This document shows positions 1 through 26,668 of a stretch of DNA of 64,000 nucleotides, piece by piece. Position 1 is the stretch's first letter. The number at the start of each line of letters is the position of its first letter. The position numbers and the translations under genes are program-made. The notes beneath the pieces are model-generated. The model did no database searches, was not told the origin of the DNA, and saw only the letters and a list, made by a program, of their open reading frames with translations. This DNA is from Bacteroidales bacterium (GTDB taxonomy: Bacteria; Bacteroidota; Bacteroidia; Bacteroidales; GWA2-32-17), in contig JABUFC010000005.1 in NCBI GenBank assembly GCA_013314715.1, positions 1 through 64,000 of the forward strand. The letters are read 5' to 3'.

Positions 1-662
1 GCACAGTACGCATGGAAAATCTGACGGTGGCCACGCAAGCTACCAATGCACGCGTTTTACTTATCGATGCACAAGGCAATGTGAGTCAGGCACAGCCAAC
101 GCTTATTGGCGATAACCTTGGCAACCACACTGCTCTGCAAAATATAAAACTTGGTAATTACTGGTTAAGCAACGAAGGAACTATTACAGCTACTTTAACA
201 GAATCGGAGTTGATGGCGAATACACCATTACTAATTACATCAAACCAAAAAATAGGTATAAGAACAACTAATATGAATGCAAATGCCGATTTACAAATAA
301 AAGGTAATACATACATCGAAGATAACTTAGGCATAGGTATTTGTTTAACAGCCAATAATAATCCCAAAGGTTATCGTTTTGCTGTAAACGGCACTATGGG
401 AGCCAAAGATATATTTATTGAAGTGGACGAAACACCTTGGCCCGATTATGTATTTGATGAACATTATAAACTTATGCCTTTGCCCGAATTAGAAACATAC
501 TTAACTAAAAACAAACACCTGCCCGATATGCCAACAGCAAACAACATAAAAGAAAATGGATTATCTTTGGCTGAAATAAATGCCCAACTTGTAAAAAAAA
601 TAGAAGAACTAACCCTATATATTATTGAACTGAATAAAAAAATAGAGAAATATGAGAAGTAA
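1..662 (+). CDS. C-terminal part of a tail-fiber-like surface protein (5' partial)
   Basis: The reading frame is open to the window edge, with no stop before the first ATG at base 12, so this is the C-terminal part of a longer protein. The visible part has a short Asn/Thr-rich region, then GYRFAVNGTMGAKDIFIEVD and WPDYVF, KHLPDMP and a final amphipathic helix (IEELTLYIIELNKKIEKYEK). This GY-x-LAVNG / WPDYVF / KHLPD arrangement is the recurrent C-terminal module of Bacteroidota surface and phage tail-fiber-like proteins; the terminal helix probably forms a trimeric coiled coil, by analogy with fiber chaperone domains. It overlaps the next gene by 11 bases, suggesting translational coupling. 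The family assignment comes from remembered motif similarity; no enzymatic role is implied. Confidence 0.75.
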   Translation, partial: TVRMENLTVATQATNARVLLIDAQGNVSQAQPTLIGDNLGNHTALQNIKLGNYWLSNEGTITATLTESELMANTPLLITSNQKIGIRTTNMNANADLQIKGNTYIEDNLGIGICLTANNNPKGYRFAVNGTMGAKDIFIEVDETPWPDYVFDEHYKLMPLPELETYLTKNKHLPDMPTANNIKENGLSLAEINAQLVKKIEELTLYIIELNKKIEKYEK

Positions 663-1290
663 TATATTATTATTATGTTTTATCTTTATTTTATCAATAA
701 TTAAAGCAAATGATAGTTTAAAGTTTTCATTGGGGTATGGAACATTATATGGTGGAGGTTTGGGTATTAAATTTGAAAAACCAATAATAAACTATAGAAT
801 AAATTTACATTTAGGCATTTCTGGTGCTTTTCTTCCACTTATTTCATTTGAAAGTCTAGAAAATAAAAAGAACTTATTAGTGTTGTACGAAAATATAGAT
901 AAAAGATTGTCTTTTAATACAGAAGGATTAAAAGTCAGTAAAAATAGATTAATAATTCCATTTTCAGTTAATATTTCTTATAAATTTTATAAGAACTTAA
1001 ATGCTTCAACAGGCTTAGGAACTTTTGCAAGAGTTTATTATTTTGATAATGCTAATTTTTTAATGTATCATTATCATTGTCTCGATATTTTCAAGTTATT
1101 TTCATTAAATTTTTCATTTTTATATGAAATTAAAAATTCATTTTTTTCTATTACTTTTTCAAGAGGATTATTTCCTTTAAGCTATCATGAATACAGGGAT
1201 AGATTCAGTTATGAGCGTAAAGAAGTTGTTAAAAATTCTTATTTTATAAGTTTTAGTACGGGATATTATTTATCGTTCAGAAAAAAATAA
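652..1290 (+). CDS. Hypothetical exported protein, probably a small outer-membrane beta-barrel
   Basis: I do not recognise the family. The first 20 residues are a signal peptide (short basic start, then LLLCFIFILSIIKA). The rest alternates hydrophobic and polar residues with frequent aromatics and glycine (FSLGYGTLYGGGLGIKFEKP near the N-terminus; YFISFSTGYYLSF near the C-terminus). This fits an 8- to 10-stranded barrel ending in an aromatic-rich last strand. It overlaps the preceding fiber-like gene and is followed 4 bases later by a GH16 gene, so these are probably one transcript. Composition is very AT-rich, like the next three genes. Function unknown. Confidence 0.6.
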   Translation: MRSNILLLCFIFILSIIKANDSLKFSLGYGTLYGGGLGIKFEKPIINYRINLHLGISGAFLPLISFESLENKKNLLVLYENIDKRLSFNTEGLKVSKNRLIIPFSVNISYKFYKNLNASTGLGTFARVYYFDNANFLMYHYHCLDIFKLFSLNFSFLYEIKNSFFSITFSRGLFPLSYHEYRDRFSYERKEVVKNSYFISFSTGYYLSFRKK

Positions 1291-1294
1291 ACTT

Positions 1295-2638
1295 ATGTTG
1301 GTCAAAATTAGAATATTATTGTTGATTTCTTTTATGTTAGATTGTTTTTCGTTGGTAGGACAGTGGATTGTTGTTTTTGAAGATCATTTTAATGGAAATA
1401 CTTTAAATACTGCTTATTGGTACAATAAACGCAAATGGGGAGATTTTCCACCGAATGTCGAACCTGTAATATATTTAACAGAAAATGTTTTTTTGCAAAA
1501 CGGTTATTTACATTTAATTCTTAAAAACGATAATAGATGGCATTATGTTCCAAATTTAAACACAATACATTTTTACCCGTACAGTGGAGGTATGATATGG
1601 TCAAAAAAATATTTTCGATATGGTATTTTTGAAGCAAAAATTAAGCTTCCTAATGAAAAGAAATTGTGGAGTGCGTTTTGGTTATATGGTAGTGCTACTT
1701 ATGGTGATGAAATTGATATATTTGAACAATATTGGACTAATAAAAAAGTTAATTTAAAATCAACTATTCATCATTCAGGTGAACAAATATCTGATAATAA
1801 TAAATATAATACAAGCTTTCTTGATAATTGGCATACATACACTTTAAGCTGGGATGATAAGAACTTAAATAATGCATGTATAAAAGTTCATATTGATGGG
1901 AATAAAGTTTCTGACTTTAAAAAAAATAATAATGATAGATTGTATAATACATATTTGGGGAACATTGTTGGTGAAACTGTCGATTATCCTGAAAAAGGGC
2001 AGAACATTATTTTTAACTTATTTTTACATGATAATACTCCGAGTTTACCACAGACAATGCTGGTAGATTATATAAAAGTCTGGCAAAAACAAAATTGTAA
2101 TGATATTGTAACTATTTGTAATTATGATGCTAAATTTGATAATAATATATTTACTGGTAGAATAATTAAATCGGGTGATAATTGTAATGTAATTGTTAAT
2201 GAAAACGAACATTTAGACTTACTGGCGACTAAAGAAATTCATTTAAAACCTGGCTTTAGTGTAAAAAAAGGTGGTTATTTTTTGGGAAAAATCATACCAT
2301 GTTCTTCTTACAAGTTAGACGAAGAAAACGTATATATTGATACTACTGATGAAAACATAAATATTGATACAAATATTATTAAATTTAAAGAAATTTATAA
2401 TAATTATGTTGGGTATAGAATATTTCCCAATCCTTTTAGTGAACACCTTAATATTTCATTGAAACAGATTGAAAATTCGTATTTTGTGATATACGACATA
2501 TTAGGTAATATCAAACATTACGAAAAATTTTACAACAACAATCAAGAAATTAACCTGATAAATTTAGAAAATGGTGTTTATCTTAGTAAATTATTTATTA
2601 ATCAAAAATCATATTATGAGAAAGTTATTAAAATATAA
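1295..2638 (+). CDS. Secreted glycoside hydrolase family 16 protein with T9SS sorting domain
   Basis: A probable endo-beta-glucanase or galactanase of the GH16 fold, exported and then passed through the type IX secretion system. After a signal peptide (about residues 1-22) comes a GH16 domain to about residue 265. It contains the catalytic signature GDEIDIFEQ, in which the first Glu is the nucleophile and the second the acid/base, and a Trp-rich strand (LWSAFWLYG). A 'three-coathanger stack' segment follows (HLDLLATKEIHLKPGFSVKK), typical between catalytic and sorting domains in this phylum. The C-terminus is a type A sorting domain starting YRIFPNPFSEHLNISL and ending in Lys-Ile. Substrate (laminarin, mixed-linkage glucan or another beta-glycan) cannot be read from the sequence. 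No SusC/SusD pair is nearby. Confidence 0.88.
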   Translation: MLVKIRILLLISFMLDCFSLVGQWIVVFEDHFNGNTLNTAYWYNKRKWGDFPPNVEPVIYLTENVFLQNGYLHLILKNDNRWHYVPNLNTIHFYPYSGGMIWSKKYFRYGIFEAKIKLPNEKKLWSAFWLYGSATYGDEIDIFEQYWTNKKVNLKSTIHHSGEQISDNNKYNTSFLDNWHTYTLSWDDKNLNNACIKVHIDGNKVSDFKKNNNDRLYNTYLGNIVGETVDYPEKGQNIIFNLFLHDNTPSLPQTMLVDYIKVWQKQNCNDIVTICNYDAKFDNNIFTGRIIKSGDNCNVIVNENEHLDLLATKEIHLKPGFSVKKGGYFLGKIIPCSSYKLDEENVYIDTTDENINIDTNIIKFKEIYNNYVGYRIFPNPFSEHLNISLKQIENSYFVIYDILGNIKHYEKFYNNNQEINLINLENGVYLSKLFINQKSYYEKVIKI

Positions 2639-3170
2639 AGCATTATTGCTTTTAATGTTTATAAGTTTTATTGCTTGTAAAAAAGTTATAATAGAATTCC
2701 CTAAATGTAAAGAAACTATAGCTGGTTTATTTCCAAAAAGTAGTATATTAACTAATAACGAAATTATATTTAAAAACGATATTTCTATTGCTTCCGATAC
2801 GTTTATTTTATTATTATATCCAAAGGTAAAATTATACTATGAACATCCATGCGATTCTTTTATAGTTGACAATTATATTCAAGATTTTAGCATATATACT
2901 GTTTCATCTTCAGATACAATAAAATTAGATGATACATACTTTAACTATTTGTTAAAAGATACTTTTACAGATATTAAATTTTCAGATTTCATAAATACAA
3001 AACAAGAAATATTAGATAAAAAACCACAAACAAAGATTTTATGTTTGCTAAAAAATAATACATACGTGCCAAATAACAATTATTTTAGATTTATGATTAT
3101 ATCAAAACTATATCAAAATACGATTGATACAATTTTTACAGATGAAATTATATTTACAGGTGTTAAATAA
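2616..3170 (+). CDS. Hypothetical lipoprotein
   Basis: I do not recognise the family. A longer frame opens at 2571, but the ATG at 2616 is preferred because it gives a normal lipoprotein signal: MRKLLKYKALLLLMFISFIA followed by Cys-Lys-Lys, with the Cys as lipidation site. The start lies inside the end of the GH16 gene (23-base overlap), indicating translational coupling. The mature part (about 165 residues) is rich in Asp, Thr, Ile and Lys, has no transmembrane segment and looks like a small beta-rich periplasmic or surface lipoprotein. Its position suggests co-expression with the GH16 enzyme; no more specific role can be inferred. Confidence 0.6.
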   Translation: MRKLLKYKALLLLMFISFIACKKVIIEFPKCKETIAGLFPKSSILTNNEIIFKNDISIASDTFILLLYPKVKLYYEHPCDSFIVDNYIQDFSIYTVSSSDTIKLDDTYFNYLLKDTFTDIKFSDFINTKQEILDKKPQTKILCLLKNNTYVPNNNYFRFMIISKLYQNTIDTIFTDEIIFTGVK

Positions 3171-3511
3171 CTTATTATGAACTATATATTTTTCAATGCT
3201 GTCCAGAATAATTTAAAAATAAAATTATGCTATTGATAATCAATAATATATGTTTCAAAAACAATGATTTTTAAATTCAAGTTATCCAGAAAATAATGAT
3301 AATGTGGGTCGTAATTTTTTTTAGTTTTAACAAATGGCTGATTTAACCATTGCCATAAATCAATTTTTTCAAAAATATTTCTCGGAAGTATATTTATTAT
3401 TTGAGAAAATATATTTACCTTTACCATAGGAGTTGGTTTTATTGACAACATAAAATTACTTCATTTTTGAAGTGTTACCAACTCCTACTTTTTTAATTTT
3501 TAAAAATTATT
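3171..3511. other. AT-rich gap with an interrupted inverted repeat
   Basis: No convincing gene. A 73-codon minus-strand frame (3230-3451) has no recognisable motif, and its start lies inside an inverted repeat. The notable structure is at 3428-3486: AGGAGTTGGT (3428-3437) is repeated in inverse as ACCAACTCCT (3477-3486), and a smaller hairpin, ACTTCA-TTTT-TGAAGT, sits between the arms. The gap separates an intact gene from a barrel gene lacking its signal peptide, so it may include the lost 5' part of that gene. Confidence 0.5.
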
Positions 3512-4177: not shown

Positions 4178-4239
4178 GTTAAACCAGTCTATTAACTTAA
4201 CGAATATTCCCTTATTAAACTCAAATGAATATTCAGAAA

Positions 4240-4279
4240 TCTCGTTCTTAGTTACAAAGAGACGGACTATTTGATTTAG
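4240..4279. repeat. Degenerate TCTCGTT palindrome repeat
   Basis: TCTCGTT (4240-4246) faces AAGAGA (4257-4262) as an imperfect palindrome. CTATTTGATTTAG (4267-4279) follows. A better preserved copy of the same two-part arrangement (palindrome, then CTACTTGATTTAG) is at 6897-6943, on the other side of the purF gene. It is non-coding and its function is unknown. Confidence 0.45.
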
Positions 4280-4440
4280 CGAGACCTTTGCAAAATTATT
4301 TCAATTTTTCGATAATTTAAAAATATTTGCTTAAAAATTGATTTTTTTAAGGTAATGATTCAAATTACTGGACGATTTTATTCAAAAAAACACCTTTTTT
4401 AAAGTCAAAGAACCTTATTTTTTATCTATTAGCCCTTATT

Positions 4441-4680
4441 TTAGGCTTTAGTTCGCACATGGGCACACTTCGCCCATCTAAATAAGTGATACGGCACTTT
4501 TCAAATTATACGCTATGGCCTGCAATACATGCTGAGTATGAACTTTAGCTAAGCCTTTATAACGAGCAACATCACCATTAAACCAACGTTTTATACTACC
4601 AAATGTCCGTTCTTTCTACTAAATAACGATAGTGTCTCATATAAGCTTAAAAAATGTCAAGTTTGCTGATTTTTCTAATT
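4441..4680 (-). pseudogene. Remnant of a DDE transposase (IS5/IS1182-like), C-terminal part
   Basis: Read on the minus strand, one frame gives AYMRHYRYLVERT. After a shift of about 4 bases near 4609-4616, a second frame gives RTFGSIKRWF, NGDVARYKGLAK and VHTQHVLQAIAYNLK before a stop at 4441. This is the well-known C-terminal block (LVERTFGSIKRWF ... YRGLAKTHTQHVLEAMAYNL) around the last catalytic Glu of IS5/IS1182-type transposases. An in-frame stop further upstream (just before AYMRH) and the frameshift show that the gene is dead. The N-terminal DDE domain is gone. Family naming is from the remembered motif only. Confidence 0.75.
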
Positions 4681-4770
4681 TCATAACGCTAAAATAACCA
4701 TTATTTCTGGAATTAAAAATAAAAATATGAATAAGTCATTAACAATTAAATATTTACATGCAAATAGAGA

Positions 4771-4901
4771 CCTTTACAAAACTTCTTTTTAGTCATTGCG
4801 ATTCTTCTAATATGTAGAAGAAGCAATCTATAAATTATTGAAAATAAGATTGATTTAATAATCACAATAACGAATGCAGTTGTTTTTTAGTTTTGCAAAG
4901 G
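4771..4901. mobile_element. MITE-like element, copy 1
   Basis: A 131-base non-coding unit bounded by CCTTTACAAAACT at the left and AGTTTTGCAAAGG at the right, which are inverted repeats with one mismatch. The interior shares the blocks GCGATT, AATAAGATTGATTT and CAATAACGAAT, in order, with a 122-base unit at 58832-58953 bounded by the same ends. Two diverged copies 54 kb apart with matching ends indicate a miniature inverted-repeat element. The adjacent transposase remnant, with a similar end at 4285, is a plausible source of its mobility. Confidence 0.65.
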
Positions 4902-4911
4902 CTTTATATTT

Positions 4912-6813
4912 TTAATATGCCCTTGTATTTACACCCTCAATGTAGTTTATAAAAGAGTTGTTTACAACCTTATTTCCGCCGGGCGTGGGATAATCGCCTG
5001 TAAAATACCAATCGCCAAGATTCTGAGGACAAGCCGTGTGCAAGTTTTCAATGCTATTATATATAATAGCAACTTCGGCTTTAATATCACTTGGAGTTAC
5101 AAGTTGAGCTATTTTTTTTGATATTTCGTCGGCAGTAAAAGGCTTATATATAAGTTTTACATAGTTTACCATATCTTCTTTGGCGTAGTATTGTTGTTCT
5201 TTACATTTTTTATACACGGTATCGATGATATGTTCCTTTTTAGTATCTTTAAGTAATTCGATAGCAGCTTGGAATGCAATAAAATCGCTCAATTTCGCCA
5301 TATCAATGCCATAACAATCGGGATATCGGATTTGAGGTGCCGACGAAACAATGATGATTTTTTTAGGTCTTAAGCGGTCGAGCATTCGAAGAATACTTTG
5401 TTTAAGTGTTGTGCCACGAACTATAGAGTCGTCCACAATGACAAGGGTGTCTTCGTAATCTTTTACAATGCCATAAGTAACATCGTAAACGTGAGCTACG
5501 AGGTCGTTACGTCCGTCGTCTTGTGAAATAAAAGTGCGAAGTTTCAGGTCTTTAACAGCAAGTTTTTCGATACGTGGACATAAAAACATAAATTCGTCGA
5601 GCTTATCAGCACTAAGCTGATTACCAAGCCCAAGTATTTTTTTCTTTTTAACTTGGTTGCAATGTTGATTTATTTCTTCTACGAGACCGTAAAATGCATC
5701 AGCAGCAGTATTGGGAATATACGAAAATACGGTATTCTTTATGTCGTAGTTAATGGTTTCGAGTACTTTGGGAGCAATAAGTTTACCCAGATTTTTTCGT
5801 TCGGTATAAATATCGCGATCGGTTCCACGAGAAAAATAAATACGTTCGAAAGAGCAACTTTTCTTTTTATATGGTTCAATAATACGTTCTATACAGATTT
5901 CGTTAAAATGCCTAATAATAATAGCATAACCAGGGTCGAGTTCTTGAATCTCTTCAAAGGGAGCATTAAATACGGTTTGAATAACAGGGCGTTCACTAGT
6001 TACAACTGCTATTTCATCGTTATAATAATAATATGCAGGTCGAATTCCCCATGGATCTCGAAAAACAAAAGCATCGCCTGTGCCAATCATTCCAGCTATT
6101 GCATAGCCACCATCCCAACGCCACGAAGCATTATTTAATATTCGTTTAATGTCTAATTCTTTCGATATGTGTTCAGTAATTTCGGCATTACTTAAGCCCA
6201 TATCTTTATATTTTCTAAACAGTGATTCAACTTGATCGTCGAGAAAATGCCCAATTTTTTCGAGCATAGTTACGGTATCGGTATAGGCTTTAGGATGTTG
6301 TCCCAGTTCAATTAAATGTTCGAAAAGCTCTTGAACGTTAGTGAGATTAAAATTACCAGCAAGCACTAAATTTCGAGTTTTCCAATTATTTTCGCGTAAT
6401 ACGGGATGTACAAATTCTATATCGTTTCGTCCAAAAGTACCATATCGTAGGTGTCCTAAAAACAATTCTCCAGCAAAAGGAACATTCTCTTTTGCCCAGT
6501 AAGGGTCTAAAAGGCGATCGTGGTGTTTTTGTTCTATGGTATCAAATTGATTACGAAGTTGTTCAAAAATATCAAGTAATGGTTGTTGAGAGTTGGAGCG
6601 AAGTCGGTCAATATAGGGTTTACCGGGTTTAGGATTGATTTTAATGGTAGCAAAACCGGCACCATCTTGGCCACGGTTATGTTGTTTCTCCATTAAAAGA
6701 TAAAGTTTGTTTAATCCATACATCCATGTGCCATAATGTGTGGCATAGTATTCTAATGGTTTTCGCAATCGTAATAAGGCAAAACCACACTCATGTTTTA
6801 TTGCTTCACTCAT
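4912..6813 (-). CDS. purF: Amidophosphoribosyltransferase, long Bacteroidota form
   Basis: Probably transfers the glutamine amide nitrogen to PRPP to make phosphoribosylamine, the first step of purine synthesis, in the cytosol. The N-terminal Ntn-glutaminase half starts MSEAIKHECG; Cys9 would become the catalytic N-terminal residue after an eight-residue propeptide is removed. QHNRGQDGAG and GHLRYGTFG follow. The phosphoribosyltransferase half has the PRPP loop VIVDDSIVRGTT near residue 460. At 633 residues it is longer than the E. coli enzyme (about 505), as is usual for this Bacteroidota subfamily, with extra segments in the N-terminal half and at the C-terminus. A longer TTG start at 6831 is rejected because it lies inside the promoter. 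A role other than purine synthesis cannot be excluded for this divergent form. Confidence 0.88.
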   Translation of the reverse strand: MSEAIKHECGFALLRLRKPLEYYATHYGTWMYGLNKLYLLMEKQHNRGQDGAGFATIKINPKPGKPYIDRLRSNSQQPLLDIFEQLRNQFDTIEQKHHDRLLDPYWAKENVPFAGELFLGHLRYGTFGRNDIEFVHPVLRENNWKTRNLVLAGNFNLTNVQELFEHLIELGQHPKAYTDTVTMLEKIGHFLDDQVESLFRKYKDMGLSNAEITEHISKELDIKRILNNASWRWDGGYAIAGMIGTGDAFVFRDPWGIRPAYYYYNDEIAVVTSERPVIQTVFNAPFEEIQELDPGYAIIIRHFNEICIERIIEPYKKKSCSFERIYFSRGTDRDIYTERKNLGKLIAPKVLETINYDIKNTVFSYIPNTAADAFYGLVEEINQHCNQVKKKKILGLGNQLSADKLDEFMFLCPRIEKLAVKDLKLRTFISQDDGRNDLVAHVYDVTYGIVKDYEDTLVIVDDSIVRGTTLKQSILRMLDRLRPKKIIIVSSAPQIRYPDCYGIDMAKLSDFIAFQAAIELLKDTKKEHIIDTVYKKCKEQQYYAKEDMVNYVKLIYKPFTADEISKKIAQLVTPSDIKAEVAIIYNSIENLHTACPQNLGDWYFTGDYPTPGGNKVVNNSFINYIEGVNTRAY

Positions 6814-6836: not shown

Positions 6837-6896
6837 ATCTTATTTTTTTAAAGGAAAGAGTTAAATTTTATCCCAAATTAATCAATAGGAGGGTCG

Positions 6897-6943
6897 TCTC
6901 GTTATTAAACTAATAACGAGATGAGCTGAACTACTTGATTTAG
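6897..6943. repeat. TCTCGTT palindrome plus conserved tail
   Basis: A perfect palindrome with 11-base arms, TCTCGTTATTA (6897-6907) and TAATAACGAGA (6911-6921), and a three-base loop. It is followed by CTACTTGATTTAG (6931-6943). The same pair of elements occurs in decayed form at 4240-4279, and arms of the same type occur twice inside a broken tRNA copy at 26278-26327. Lack of a U tract argues against a simple terminator. Confidence 0.6.
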
Positions 6944-6961
6944 TTGCGATAACCCCGATTT

Positions 6962-7004
6962 AGTGATGATTCAATTCCATTTTTTGGAATTGATTACAAT
7001 CACT
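6962..7004. repeat. Long interrupted inverted repeat
   Basis: AGTGAT ... TCAATTCCA (6962-6979) is mirrored by TGGAATTGA ... ATCACT (6984-7004) around a five-base T loop. The inner nine pairs are perfect and a mismatch leads to the outer six. It lies between the 5' end of purF and the 3' end of the helix-hairpin-helix barrel gene, both on the minus strand. It could act as a terminator or RNA-stability hairpin for the latter operon, although no clear T run follows. Confidence 0.45.
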
Positions 7005-7051
7005 TTATCGTTTAAGCATTTCTAATGCATAATCTGGGTTTATATTCAGAG

Positions 7052-25915: not shown

Positions 25916-25992
25916 GGTGTGGTAGTTCAGCTGGTTAGAATGCCGGCCTGTCACGCCGGAGGTCGCGGGTTCGAGTCCCGTCCACACCGCCA
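25916..25992 (+). tRNA. tRNA-Asp (anticodon GTC), CCA encoded
   Basis: The acceptor stem GGTGTGG pairs with CCACACC, then discriminator G and an encoded CCA. The D arm contains AGCTGGTTA, the anticodon stem CCGGC/GCCGG flanks the loop CTGTCAC with anticodon GTC, and the T arm is GCGGG-TTCGAGT-CCCGT with the invariant TTCGA. All stems close. The 3' half is duplicated in broken form at 26264-26337 and again in part at 26609. Confidence 0.97.
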
Positions 25993-26020
25993 ACCGCTCA
26001 AAAAAAGGGCGGTTTTTTTT
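25992..26020 (+). terminator. Intrinsic terminator of tRNA-Asp
   Basis: The stem AACCGC/GCGGTT around a short A-rich loop is followed by a run of T (26013-26020). It begins at the last base of the encoded CCA. The GIY-YIG start codon lies 2 bases after the T run. Confidence 0.85.
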
Positions 26021-26262: not shown

Positions 26263-26277
26263 CATGCCGGCCTGTCA

Positions 26278-26298
26278 TCTCGTTGTTACACAACGAGA
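26278..26298. repeat. TCTCGTT palindrome inside tRNA remnant, first
   Basis: Arms TCTCGTTG and CAACGAGA around the loop TTACA. It stands in the place of 12 bases of the tRNA-Asp sequence. Same arm type as the repeat at 6897. The third unit repeats the first arm (26622) but is then truncated. Confidence 0.8.
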
Positions 26299-26307
26299 CG
26301 GGTTCGA

Positions 26308-26327
26308 TCTCGTTAAGATTAACGAGA
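26308..26327. repeat. TCTCGTT palindrome inside tRNA remnant, second
   Basis: Arms TCTCGTTAA and TTAACGAGA around a two-base GA loop. It replaces 8 bases of the T-stem 3' side. Together with the first palindrome it leaves the tRNA segments between and around them unchanged. Confidence 0.8.
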
Positions 26328-26336
26328 CACACCGCC

Positions 26337-26365
26337 AACCGCTCAAAAAAAGGGCGGTTTTTTTT
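26337..26365 (+). terminator. Duplicated tRNA-Asp terminator
   Basis: Identical to the terminator after tRNA-Asp (AACCGC/GCGGTT stem and T run). It follows the broken tRNA copy and immediately precedes the second GIY-YIG gene. Confidence 0.75.
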
Positions 26366-26367
26366 AT

Positions 26368-26607
26368 ATGTATTGGGTTTACATCATAGAAAATCCTGAA
26401 GGTCTTTACTATAAAGGCTACACTCAGAATGTTGAAAAACGTCTTTACGAGCATAATGCTGGCGAAAGTCGTTATACATCAGGCAAGGGACCTTGGAAAT
26501 TAGTTTATAAGCGTTCATATTTGACTAAAACAGAAGCATTGAAAGAAGAACGTCGTTTAAAACGTTTAAATTCAAACTCGATAAAGAAGTTAATTGAACA
26601 AGGTTAG
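26368..26607 (+). CDS. Small GIY-YIG nuclease-domain protein, copy 2
   Basis: Identical to the copy at 26023 apart from the last residue (Gly instead of Asp, a single base change). All GIY-YIG residues are preserved: YWVYII, YYKGYT, the Arg in EKRLYEHN and the Glu in EALKEERR. The near-perfect identity implies a very recent duplication; whether both are expressed is unknown. A third copy of the repeat start follows directly after the stop. Confidence 0.85.
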   Translation: MYWVYIIENPEGLYYKGYTQNVEKRLYEHNAGESRYTSGKGPWKLVYKRSYLTKTEALKEERRLKRLNSNSIKKLIEQG

Positions 26608-26668
26608 CATGCCGGCCTGTTATCTCGTTGTTCACAATTTTTTTGTATAGATAGGGTTTAGCCTGCCT

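Follow-up and report, generated by a model that had tools for sequence, protein, structure and literature searches.

In the window (the whole stretch of DNA that was analyzed, 64,000 nucleotides), an intact tRNA-Asp gene is followed by a small GIY-YIG nuclease gene and then by a partial tRNA-Asp copy in which two stretches have been exchanged for perfect palindromes. Because this arrangement recurs at many tRNA genes in many bacteria, it looks like a tRNA-parasitizing mobile gene family rather than a local accident. The explanation that we favor, and that we consider about evenly poised between right and wrong, is that a homing-type GIY-YIG element occupies the tRNA gene, brings a spare part of the tRNA with it, and leaves a copy that has been defaced by mobile palindromes.

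The repeated unit at tRNA-Asp

The features of the locus are given in Table 1. The ATG of the first nuclease gene stands 2 bases past the T run of a terminator-like hairpin, the scarred tRNA copy begins directly behind the stop codon of that gene, and the unit composed of gene and scarred copy is tandemly repeated, with the two nuclease copies identical at 78 of 78 aligned residues. ARAGORN and Rfam both detected the intact tRNA gene alone and made no tRNA call in the scarred copy. The palindromes disrupt the partial copies; the intact tRNA beside the nuclease gene carries none.

Table 1. Positions of the tRNA-Asp unit and of a dispersed-repeat member in the window
Feature	Position	Strand	Evidence
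Intact tRNA-Asp (gtc), host gene of the putative element	25916-25992	+	ARAGORN; Rfam tRNA 70.9 bits
Terminator-like hairpin and T run, first copy	25993-26020	+	Sequence
GIY-YIG nuclease gene copy 1, 79 aa	26023-26262	+	ORF; Pfam PF01541 E=5.4e-15
Partial tRNA-Asp copy (tRNA nt 20-77), two stretches replaced by palindromes	26264-26337	+	Sequence, tRNA mapping
Palindrome 1, TCTCGTTGT-TAC-ACAACGAGA, in place of tRNA 39-50	26278-26298	No strand	Pattern search, mapping
Palindrome 2, TCTCGTTAA-GA-TTAACGAGA, in place of tRNA 60-67	26308-26327	No strand	Pattern search, mapping
Terminator-like hairpin, second copy	26338-26365	+	Sequence
GIY-YIG nuclease gene copy 2	26368-26607	+	ORF
Third partial tRNA-Asp copy, ending inside its own palindrome (TCTCGTTGTTCACAA)	26608-26637	+	Sequence
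Dispersed-repeat member with palindrome of the TCTCGTT family	6873-7040	-	Genome matches
TCTCGTTATTA-AAC-TAATAACGAGA, TCTCGTT family, within the dispersed repeat	6897-6921	No strand	Pattern search

Read from its start, the scarred copy consists of ATGCCGGCCTGTCA (26264-26277), TCTCGTTGTTACACAACGAGA (26278-26298) where the tRNA has CGCCGGAGGTCG, CGGGTTCGA (26299-26307), TCTCGTTAAGATTAACGAGA (26308-26327) where the tRNA has GTCCCGTC, and CACACCGCCA (26328-26337). Both palindromes have perfect arms of 9 bp, with loops of 3 and 2 bases, respectively. The first stands in for the last base of the anticodon loop, the 3′ side of the anticodon stem, the variable loop, and the first base of the T stem; the second stands in for the end of the T loop, the 3′ side of the T stem, and one acceptor base. 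The first-pass annotation had reported that 12 bases gave way to a 21-bp palindrome and 8 bases to a 20-bp palindrome, which direct reading confirmed to the base, and that the 3′ sides of the anticodon and T stems had been replaced, which mapping upheld in essence. Its interpretation of replacements in tRNA stem-loops held, while the adjacent GIY-YIG gene, the third copy, and the intact tRNA alongside had been overlooked. An assembly artifact, which it had named as an outcome that would undo its claim, was excluded because the same arrangement was found in unrelated isolates, including independently sequenced cultured strains such as Flavobacterium and Sediminibacterium.

A profile search placed a GIY-YIG domain in the window nuclease (PF01541; E=5.4e-15), phmmer matched it to the UPF0213 structures 1zg2 (E=3.1e-12) and 1ywl (E=1.8e-7), and the GIY-YIG motif columns looked conserved when the alignment was inspected by eye. 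Judged by these similarities, the protein belongs to the GIY-YIG superfamily as a UPF0213-like member, of a type that we take to be COG2827.

Among the 33 distinct tRNA genes of the same genome, a palindrome-bearing partial copy accompanied 3 of the 3 that have an adjacent GIY-YIG gene and 0 of the 30 others, for which two weak k-mer matches were obtained, neither with a hairpin. At a tRNA-Met gene on contig 19, the GIY-YIG gene is followed by a scarred copy in which TTCTTCTGATTC-ATAACG-GAATCAGAAGAA takes the place of tRNA 37-46, and the locus is a tandem array, as at tRNA-Asp. At tRNA-Met on contig 14, the GIY-YIG gene is accompanied by a scarred copy with TCCCGATTTATCGGGA near the T arm, and the tRNA-Met copy of a congener (L063) bears TTCTTCTCAGTAATGAGAAGAA at the site that matches this scar. 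No GIY-YIG gene was found at tRNA-Asp in three congeners. A separate observation concerns L010 (G000:C38, ~1000-2080), where a tRNA-less GIY-YIG gene is flanked by tandem copies of a repeat in which gtcattcttcgacaagctcagaatgac occurs.

Scarred tRNA copies at GIY-YIG loci across phyla

Loci were gathered by a scan of a genome collection with the window nuclease and by a class-wide scan. GIY-YIG genes were present in 27 of 149 genomes of the class, a patchy distribution. Together, the two scans yielded loci in Flavobacterium, Maribacter, Sediminibacterium, Bacteroidales, and Lentimicrobium and, at greater distance, in Levybacteria, Saccharibacteria, Daviesbacteria, Nitrospirota, Desulfobacteraceae, and others. 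The same plan was seen at tRNA-Asp, Asn, Phe, Ser, Val, Ala, Leu, Arg, Glu, Lys, His, Pro, Met, and Gln, a list that includes some loci that failed the automatic criteria behind the counts. A partial tRNA copy, as defined by a k-mer criterion, was present at 44 of 67 GIY-YIG loci in a sample that was seeded from one tRNA-Asp nuclease, is biased to its relatives, and contains array copies that are not independent. Perfect hairpins with arms of at least 6 bp, one or more per locus, were found in the copies at 40 of these 44 loci, in Bacteroidota, Patescibacteria, and other phyla, and when copies were counted singly, with 20 bases of flank included in the copy segments, a perfect hairpin with an arm of at least 7 bp was present in 59 of 73 partial copies, compared to 3.2 expected from dinucleotide shuffling and 5 of 47 intact tRNA genes. 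Where no tRNA was nearby, the GIY-YIG gene mostly had neither a hairpin nor another Rfam RNA next to it; the link is therefore to tRNA loci.

The ends retained by the copies are those expected if the unit had inserted within the tRNA: copies 5′ of the intact tRNA kept the tRNA 5′ end in 21 of 25 cases and both ends in one more, and copies 3′ of it kept the tRNA 3′ end in 29 of 48. The 10 downstream copies with the tRNA 5′ end belong to Flavobacterium-type arrays, in which they are flanked by an intact tRNA gene on either side. The order is reversed in several genomes of Patescibacteria and of other distant groups, where the nuclease gene precedes the intact tRNA and the scarred copy represents the 5′ part. 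With a partial copy on one or both sides and one intact tRNA at the locus, the nuclease gene lies in its presumed target gene and the function of the target is kept, as at a homing element. It is extremely unlikely, in our view, that the protein is instead a toxin that cleaves tRNA, or a repair nuclease with a housekeeping function, and that the tRNA copies are decoys or accidents. Its closest solved structures are uncharacterized UPF0213 proteins, which would allow such a function, but a DNA-targeting parasite accounts better for the insertion-like split of the copies and for the recurrence at at least 13 tRNA species.

In a tree of 50 nucleases, which was built from 86 columns only and in which many forks were unresolved, 21 tRNA-Asp nucleases formed one clade (support, 98/93), and two Met nucleases of different families grouped at 99/94. 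The tRNA-species labels required 21 changes on this tree compared to 26.5 when shuffled, with none of 200 shuffles as low, near-copies in the sample adding to the clustering. The nuclease lineage tracks the tRNA species, and the combination of patchy distribution and target-specific lineages is that of homing elements.

When 51 palindromes were mapped onto the tRNA, most fell in the anticodon arm (its 3′ side or the whole arm), fewer in the T arm, and a few in the D arm. In the tRNA-Asp lineage, tRNA 39-50 was replaced in almost every genome, and the palindrome at that place varied on both stem sides together (TCTCGTT, TCTCGTC, TCTCGCC, TCCCCAAC, and TCCCCACA). Changes on both sides of the stem would be in keeping with a role of the palindromes in RNA, where they might block tRNA folding or cutting by RNase P or RNase Z in the nuclease transcript or stabilize the mRNA end. 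Also in line with such a role, the scarred copy folds as two strong hairpins with no cloverleaf (z, -3.97), and the arrangement of terminator and start codon implies read-through from the tRNA promoter. We nevertheless regard an action in RNA as distinctly unlikely: many downstream copies are without the tRNA 5′ half and hence are incapable of forming a tRNA anyway, and mismatches in the sense-strand stems comprised 2 T-G and 5 A-C pairs. T-G did not exceed A-C, and there is therefore no sign that wobble pairs are tolerated in RNA.

At four loci (L082, L109, L118, and L126), the intact tRNA is flanked by a scarred copy on either side, and the palindrome occupies the same place in both copies. 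The upstream and downstream copies at these loci share a palindrome-bearing core in the manner of a direct repeat, and this, together with the existence of tandem arrays of units, is what might be expected if the tRNA core and palindrome formed a site-specific recombination site (compare att sites and attC hairpins) and the GIY-YIG gene were a mobile cassette. No recombinase adjoined the loci that were read, however, the arrays contain copies of one gene rather than varied cassettes, and the palindrome sequence at the same place varies between loci, all of which makes a recombination cassette very improbable.

Several other observations were made in the course of the survey. ARAGORN called the scarred copies at L130:1718-1793 and L132:771-851 tRNA-Phe and tRNA-Lys, respectively, amino acids other than the true ones, because the palindrome mimics an anticodon arm; at scarred-copy loci, automatic annotation may yield false tRNA genes, and the arrangement explains odd partial or false tRNA calls beside small GIY-YIG genes. 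In Flavobacterium amnicola (L086:1756-2350), the scarred copy at the GIY-YIG gene (TCTCGTTGTGCCAACGAGA) corresponds to a non-tRNA sequence upstream, possibly another small RNA. At L116, a terminator hairpin 3′ of the scarred tRNA-Val copy has a TCCCGATAGCAATCGGGA palindrome in its loop, so that one hairpin is nested in another.

Palindrome families outside the tRNA copies

Pattern searches for TCTCGTT-N(0-30)-AACGAGA found 3 matches in the window, compared to 0.01 expected from shuffling, and 6 in the 3.0-Mb draft genome, which its relatives and gene content mark as of Bacteroidota type, compared to 0 for a reversed control pattern; a genome-wide enrichment of this kind was the check that the first-pass annotation had proposed. 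No match was found in three congeners. Two of the six lie in the scarred tRNA-Asp copy, one lies in the P12 stem of rnpB, and three lie in a multihairpin dispersed repeat of ~150 bp that has 16 matches in the genome. Five copies of this repeat are filled, that is, contain the palindrome (L026-L029 and L033), and four are empty, with an 8- to 9-bp sequence in its place (L030, L031, L032, and L035). The dispersed-repeat copies show the filled/empty-site pattern by which a mobile palindromic (hairpin) element is recognized.

That the palindromes strike stem-loops, as the first-pass annotation had it, was supported by one additional palindrome in another structured RNA gene: the P12 stem of RNase P RNA in the window genome is a TCTCGTT-family palindrome, and three congeners have different P12 stems. 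In 5 of 15 relatives, P12 contains a hexamer from the tRNA-copy palindromes (0.95 expected from letter shuffling; P of ~0.001), a sharing that is suggestive only, as the hexamer list was compiled after the data were seen. Separately, TTCTTCTCGTAAGCGAGAAGAA, which belongs to the arm family of the tRNA-Met scars, occurs inside the rnpB span of a congener but outside P12 (G002:C22:45823-45844), and TTCTTCTCTTAAAAAAGAGAAGAA is a dispersed perfect palindrome found in the window genome (G000) in at least 10 places (e.g., C5:89496-89519 and C7:33945-33968). At L005 (G000:C21:19000-26000, ~1-3250 and 4207-6582), a repeat array with a 77-bp period and 47-bp repeats was read as a CRISPR array; it adjoins an ORF with HNH-type Cas9-like sequence, and between the two lies a palindrome-bearing dispersed repeat, beside a decayed RAYT-like transposase.

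A palindrome of another sequence, TCCCGAT-N(0-12)-ATCGGGA, was present in 22 to 60 copies in each of four related genomes (control, 0 to 1), in intergenic places and inside other repeats. As a blind check, a TCCCGAT palindrome pair in genome G205 was chosen by sequence alone, regardless of GIY-YIG genes; it proved to lie in a pseudo-tRNA that adjoins an intact tRNA-Met and then a GIY-YIG gene. At L204 (G205:C1:791863-791880), a TCCCGATAGCTATCGGGA palindrome stands in what appears by eye to be a reading frame, possibly as an in-frame insertion. Insertion into existing hairpin loops was rejected as a general rule for TCCCGAT, flanking stems of at least 6 bp having been found at 1 of 44 sites, with 0.9 expected.

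These distributions bear on the origin of the palindromes. The first-pass annotation had proposed targeted insertion or template-switched repair; template switching from local sequence is rejected because the same palindrome families occur in unrelated loci and genomes, and the palindromes are not built from flanking sequence. It is also possible, though on the unlikely side, that the palindromes are independent micro-mobile elements that settle in any nonessential structured sequence, with the tRNA copies serving as a safe harbor and the nuclease taking no part in their arrival. The presence of the same families away from GIY-YIG genes (in the filled/empty repeat, in RNase P P12 stems, and in intergenic places) speaks for such independence, as does L121, where a partial tRNA-Arg copy contains a 19-bp palindrome as a pure insertion, every tRNA base having been kept. 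Against it, the positions in tRNA copies are far from random, with tRNA 39-50 occupied in nearly the whole Asp lineage, and outside the palindromes the copies retain long exact tRNA stretches, unlike a free-drifting pseudogene.

No Y1 transposase above threshold was found in the genus. RAYT transposases are present in most of the related genomes, and the intact genes are flanked by CCACGACCT, CGACCCC, and others; since these differ from the palindromes in the tRNA copies, RAYTs and their REP sequences are not regarded as the movers.

A proposed homing-type element and its relation to known systems

Under the explanation that we favor, the UPF0213/COG2827-type GIY-YIG gene would be a homing-type parasite of tRNA genes. 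The element would sit in a tRNA gene together with a duplicated 3′ (or 5′) part of the tRNA, through which one complete tRNA would always be retained and the host would survive, and the interrupted tRNA copy would remain beside the nuclease gene. In that copy, the junction, usually in the anticodon arm and sometimes in the T arm, is taken up by short perfect palindromes, one or several in number, instead of tRNA sequence, and some of them at least are members of families that are dispersed through this genome or related ones. The palindromes are supposed to lie where the nuclease acts, and their most likely role would be to rid the spare copy of the nuclease target (or of a tRNA fold), with the tRNA sequence on both sides left as homology for repair-driven spread. 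The data show the architecture, its association with the nuclease gene, nuclease lineages that follow the tRNA species, the conserved palindrome position, and dispersed relatives of some palindromes; we infer the cutting of tRNA genes by the protein, its homing or spread by repair, and the protective role of the palindromes from the arrangement described above.

Two observations do not fit easily and count against homing. The intact tRNA is not defaced and hence should be cut too if the nuclease cuts tRNA sequence. In addition, the tRNA stretch that separates the nuclease gene from the palindrome agrees with the host's own tRNA, a match that would not result if the element had simply been transferred from another species and that suggests local duplication or gene conversion. 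Tandem arrays can arise by unequal crossing-over as well. A bolder proposal, which we think unlikely, is that the nuclease and the palindromes together make up a single two-part system, in which small GIY-YIG nucleases make cuts in tRNA genes, and perhaps in other stem-loop genes, that open sites for the copying of micropalindromes and thereby swap RNA stems, including those of RNase P RNA, across many bacterial phyla.

If the homing explanation is true, these loci represent a class of selfish genes that is widespread, resides in bacterial tRNA genes with neither intron nor intein, and survives by carrying part of the host tRNA as a spare. An old puzzle, how very short perfect palindromes arise and move in genomes, would then be tied to a concrete nuclease and a concrete landing site, both open to laboratory tests. 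We found no published description of hairpin-bearing partial tRNA copies beside GIY-YIG genes in the open-access literature, which is weak evidence of novelty.

Parts of the arrangement have counterparts in known systems. Some endonuclease elements of fungal mitochondria include a partial duplicate of the gene that they occupy, as in Allomyces atp6/ORF360. As in the present loci, the nuclease gene lies within a host gene and brings along a spare end by which that gene is restored; unlike the tRNA hosts described here, the hosts of the fungal elements are protein-coding mitochondrial genes, and we know of no report that links palindromes to their junctions. Cyanobacterial short repeats in RNase P P12 and the palindromic elements of Rickettsia are repeats in variable RNA stems or genes; they differ from the present palindromes in sequence and are not known to be linked to a nuclease. 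REP sequences of the RAYT (Y1) system are likewise short palindromes dispersed in bacterial genomes, but there the palindromes flank a cognate RAYT gene, which those described here do not.

Phage T4 SegB is a free-standing GIY-YIG protein and is reported to be an active homing endonuclease that favors the inheritance of its tRNA gene region (PMC2988022). Its gene, like those in our loci, stands free in a region of tRNA genes, but it lies between phage tRNA genes, and neither a partial tRNA duplicate nor junction palindromes are described there (PMC2988022). The present protein, unlike SegB, is a bare catalytic domain of 79 aa encoded on bacterial chromosomes. By analogy, free-standing GIY-YIG homing endonucleases such as SegB are probably the closest functional relatives of the nuclease. 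For the palindromes, the comparison is with the double-hairpin elements, GC clusters, and repetitive hairpin-forming elements of mitochondria, which are short perfect hairpins that are optional between species, are regarded as mobile, and sometimes lie inside RNA genes (PMC7218506, PMC2800124). Those hairpins are organellar and have no tie to a nuclease gene, whereas the present ones are bacterial and are concentrated in partial tRNA copies beside GIY-YIG genes; by the same kind of analogy, the mobile mitochondrial hairpins appear to be the closest relatives of the palindromes.
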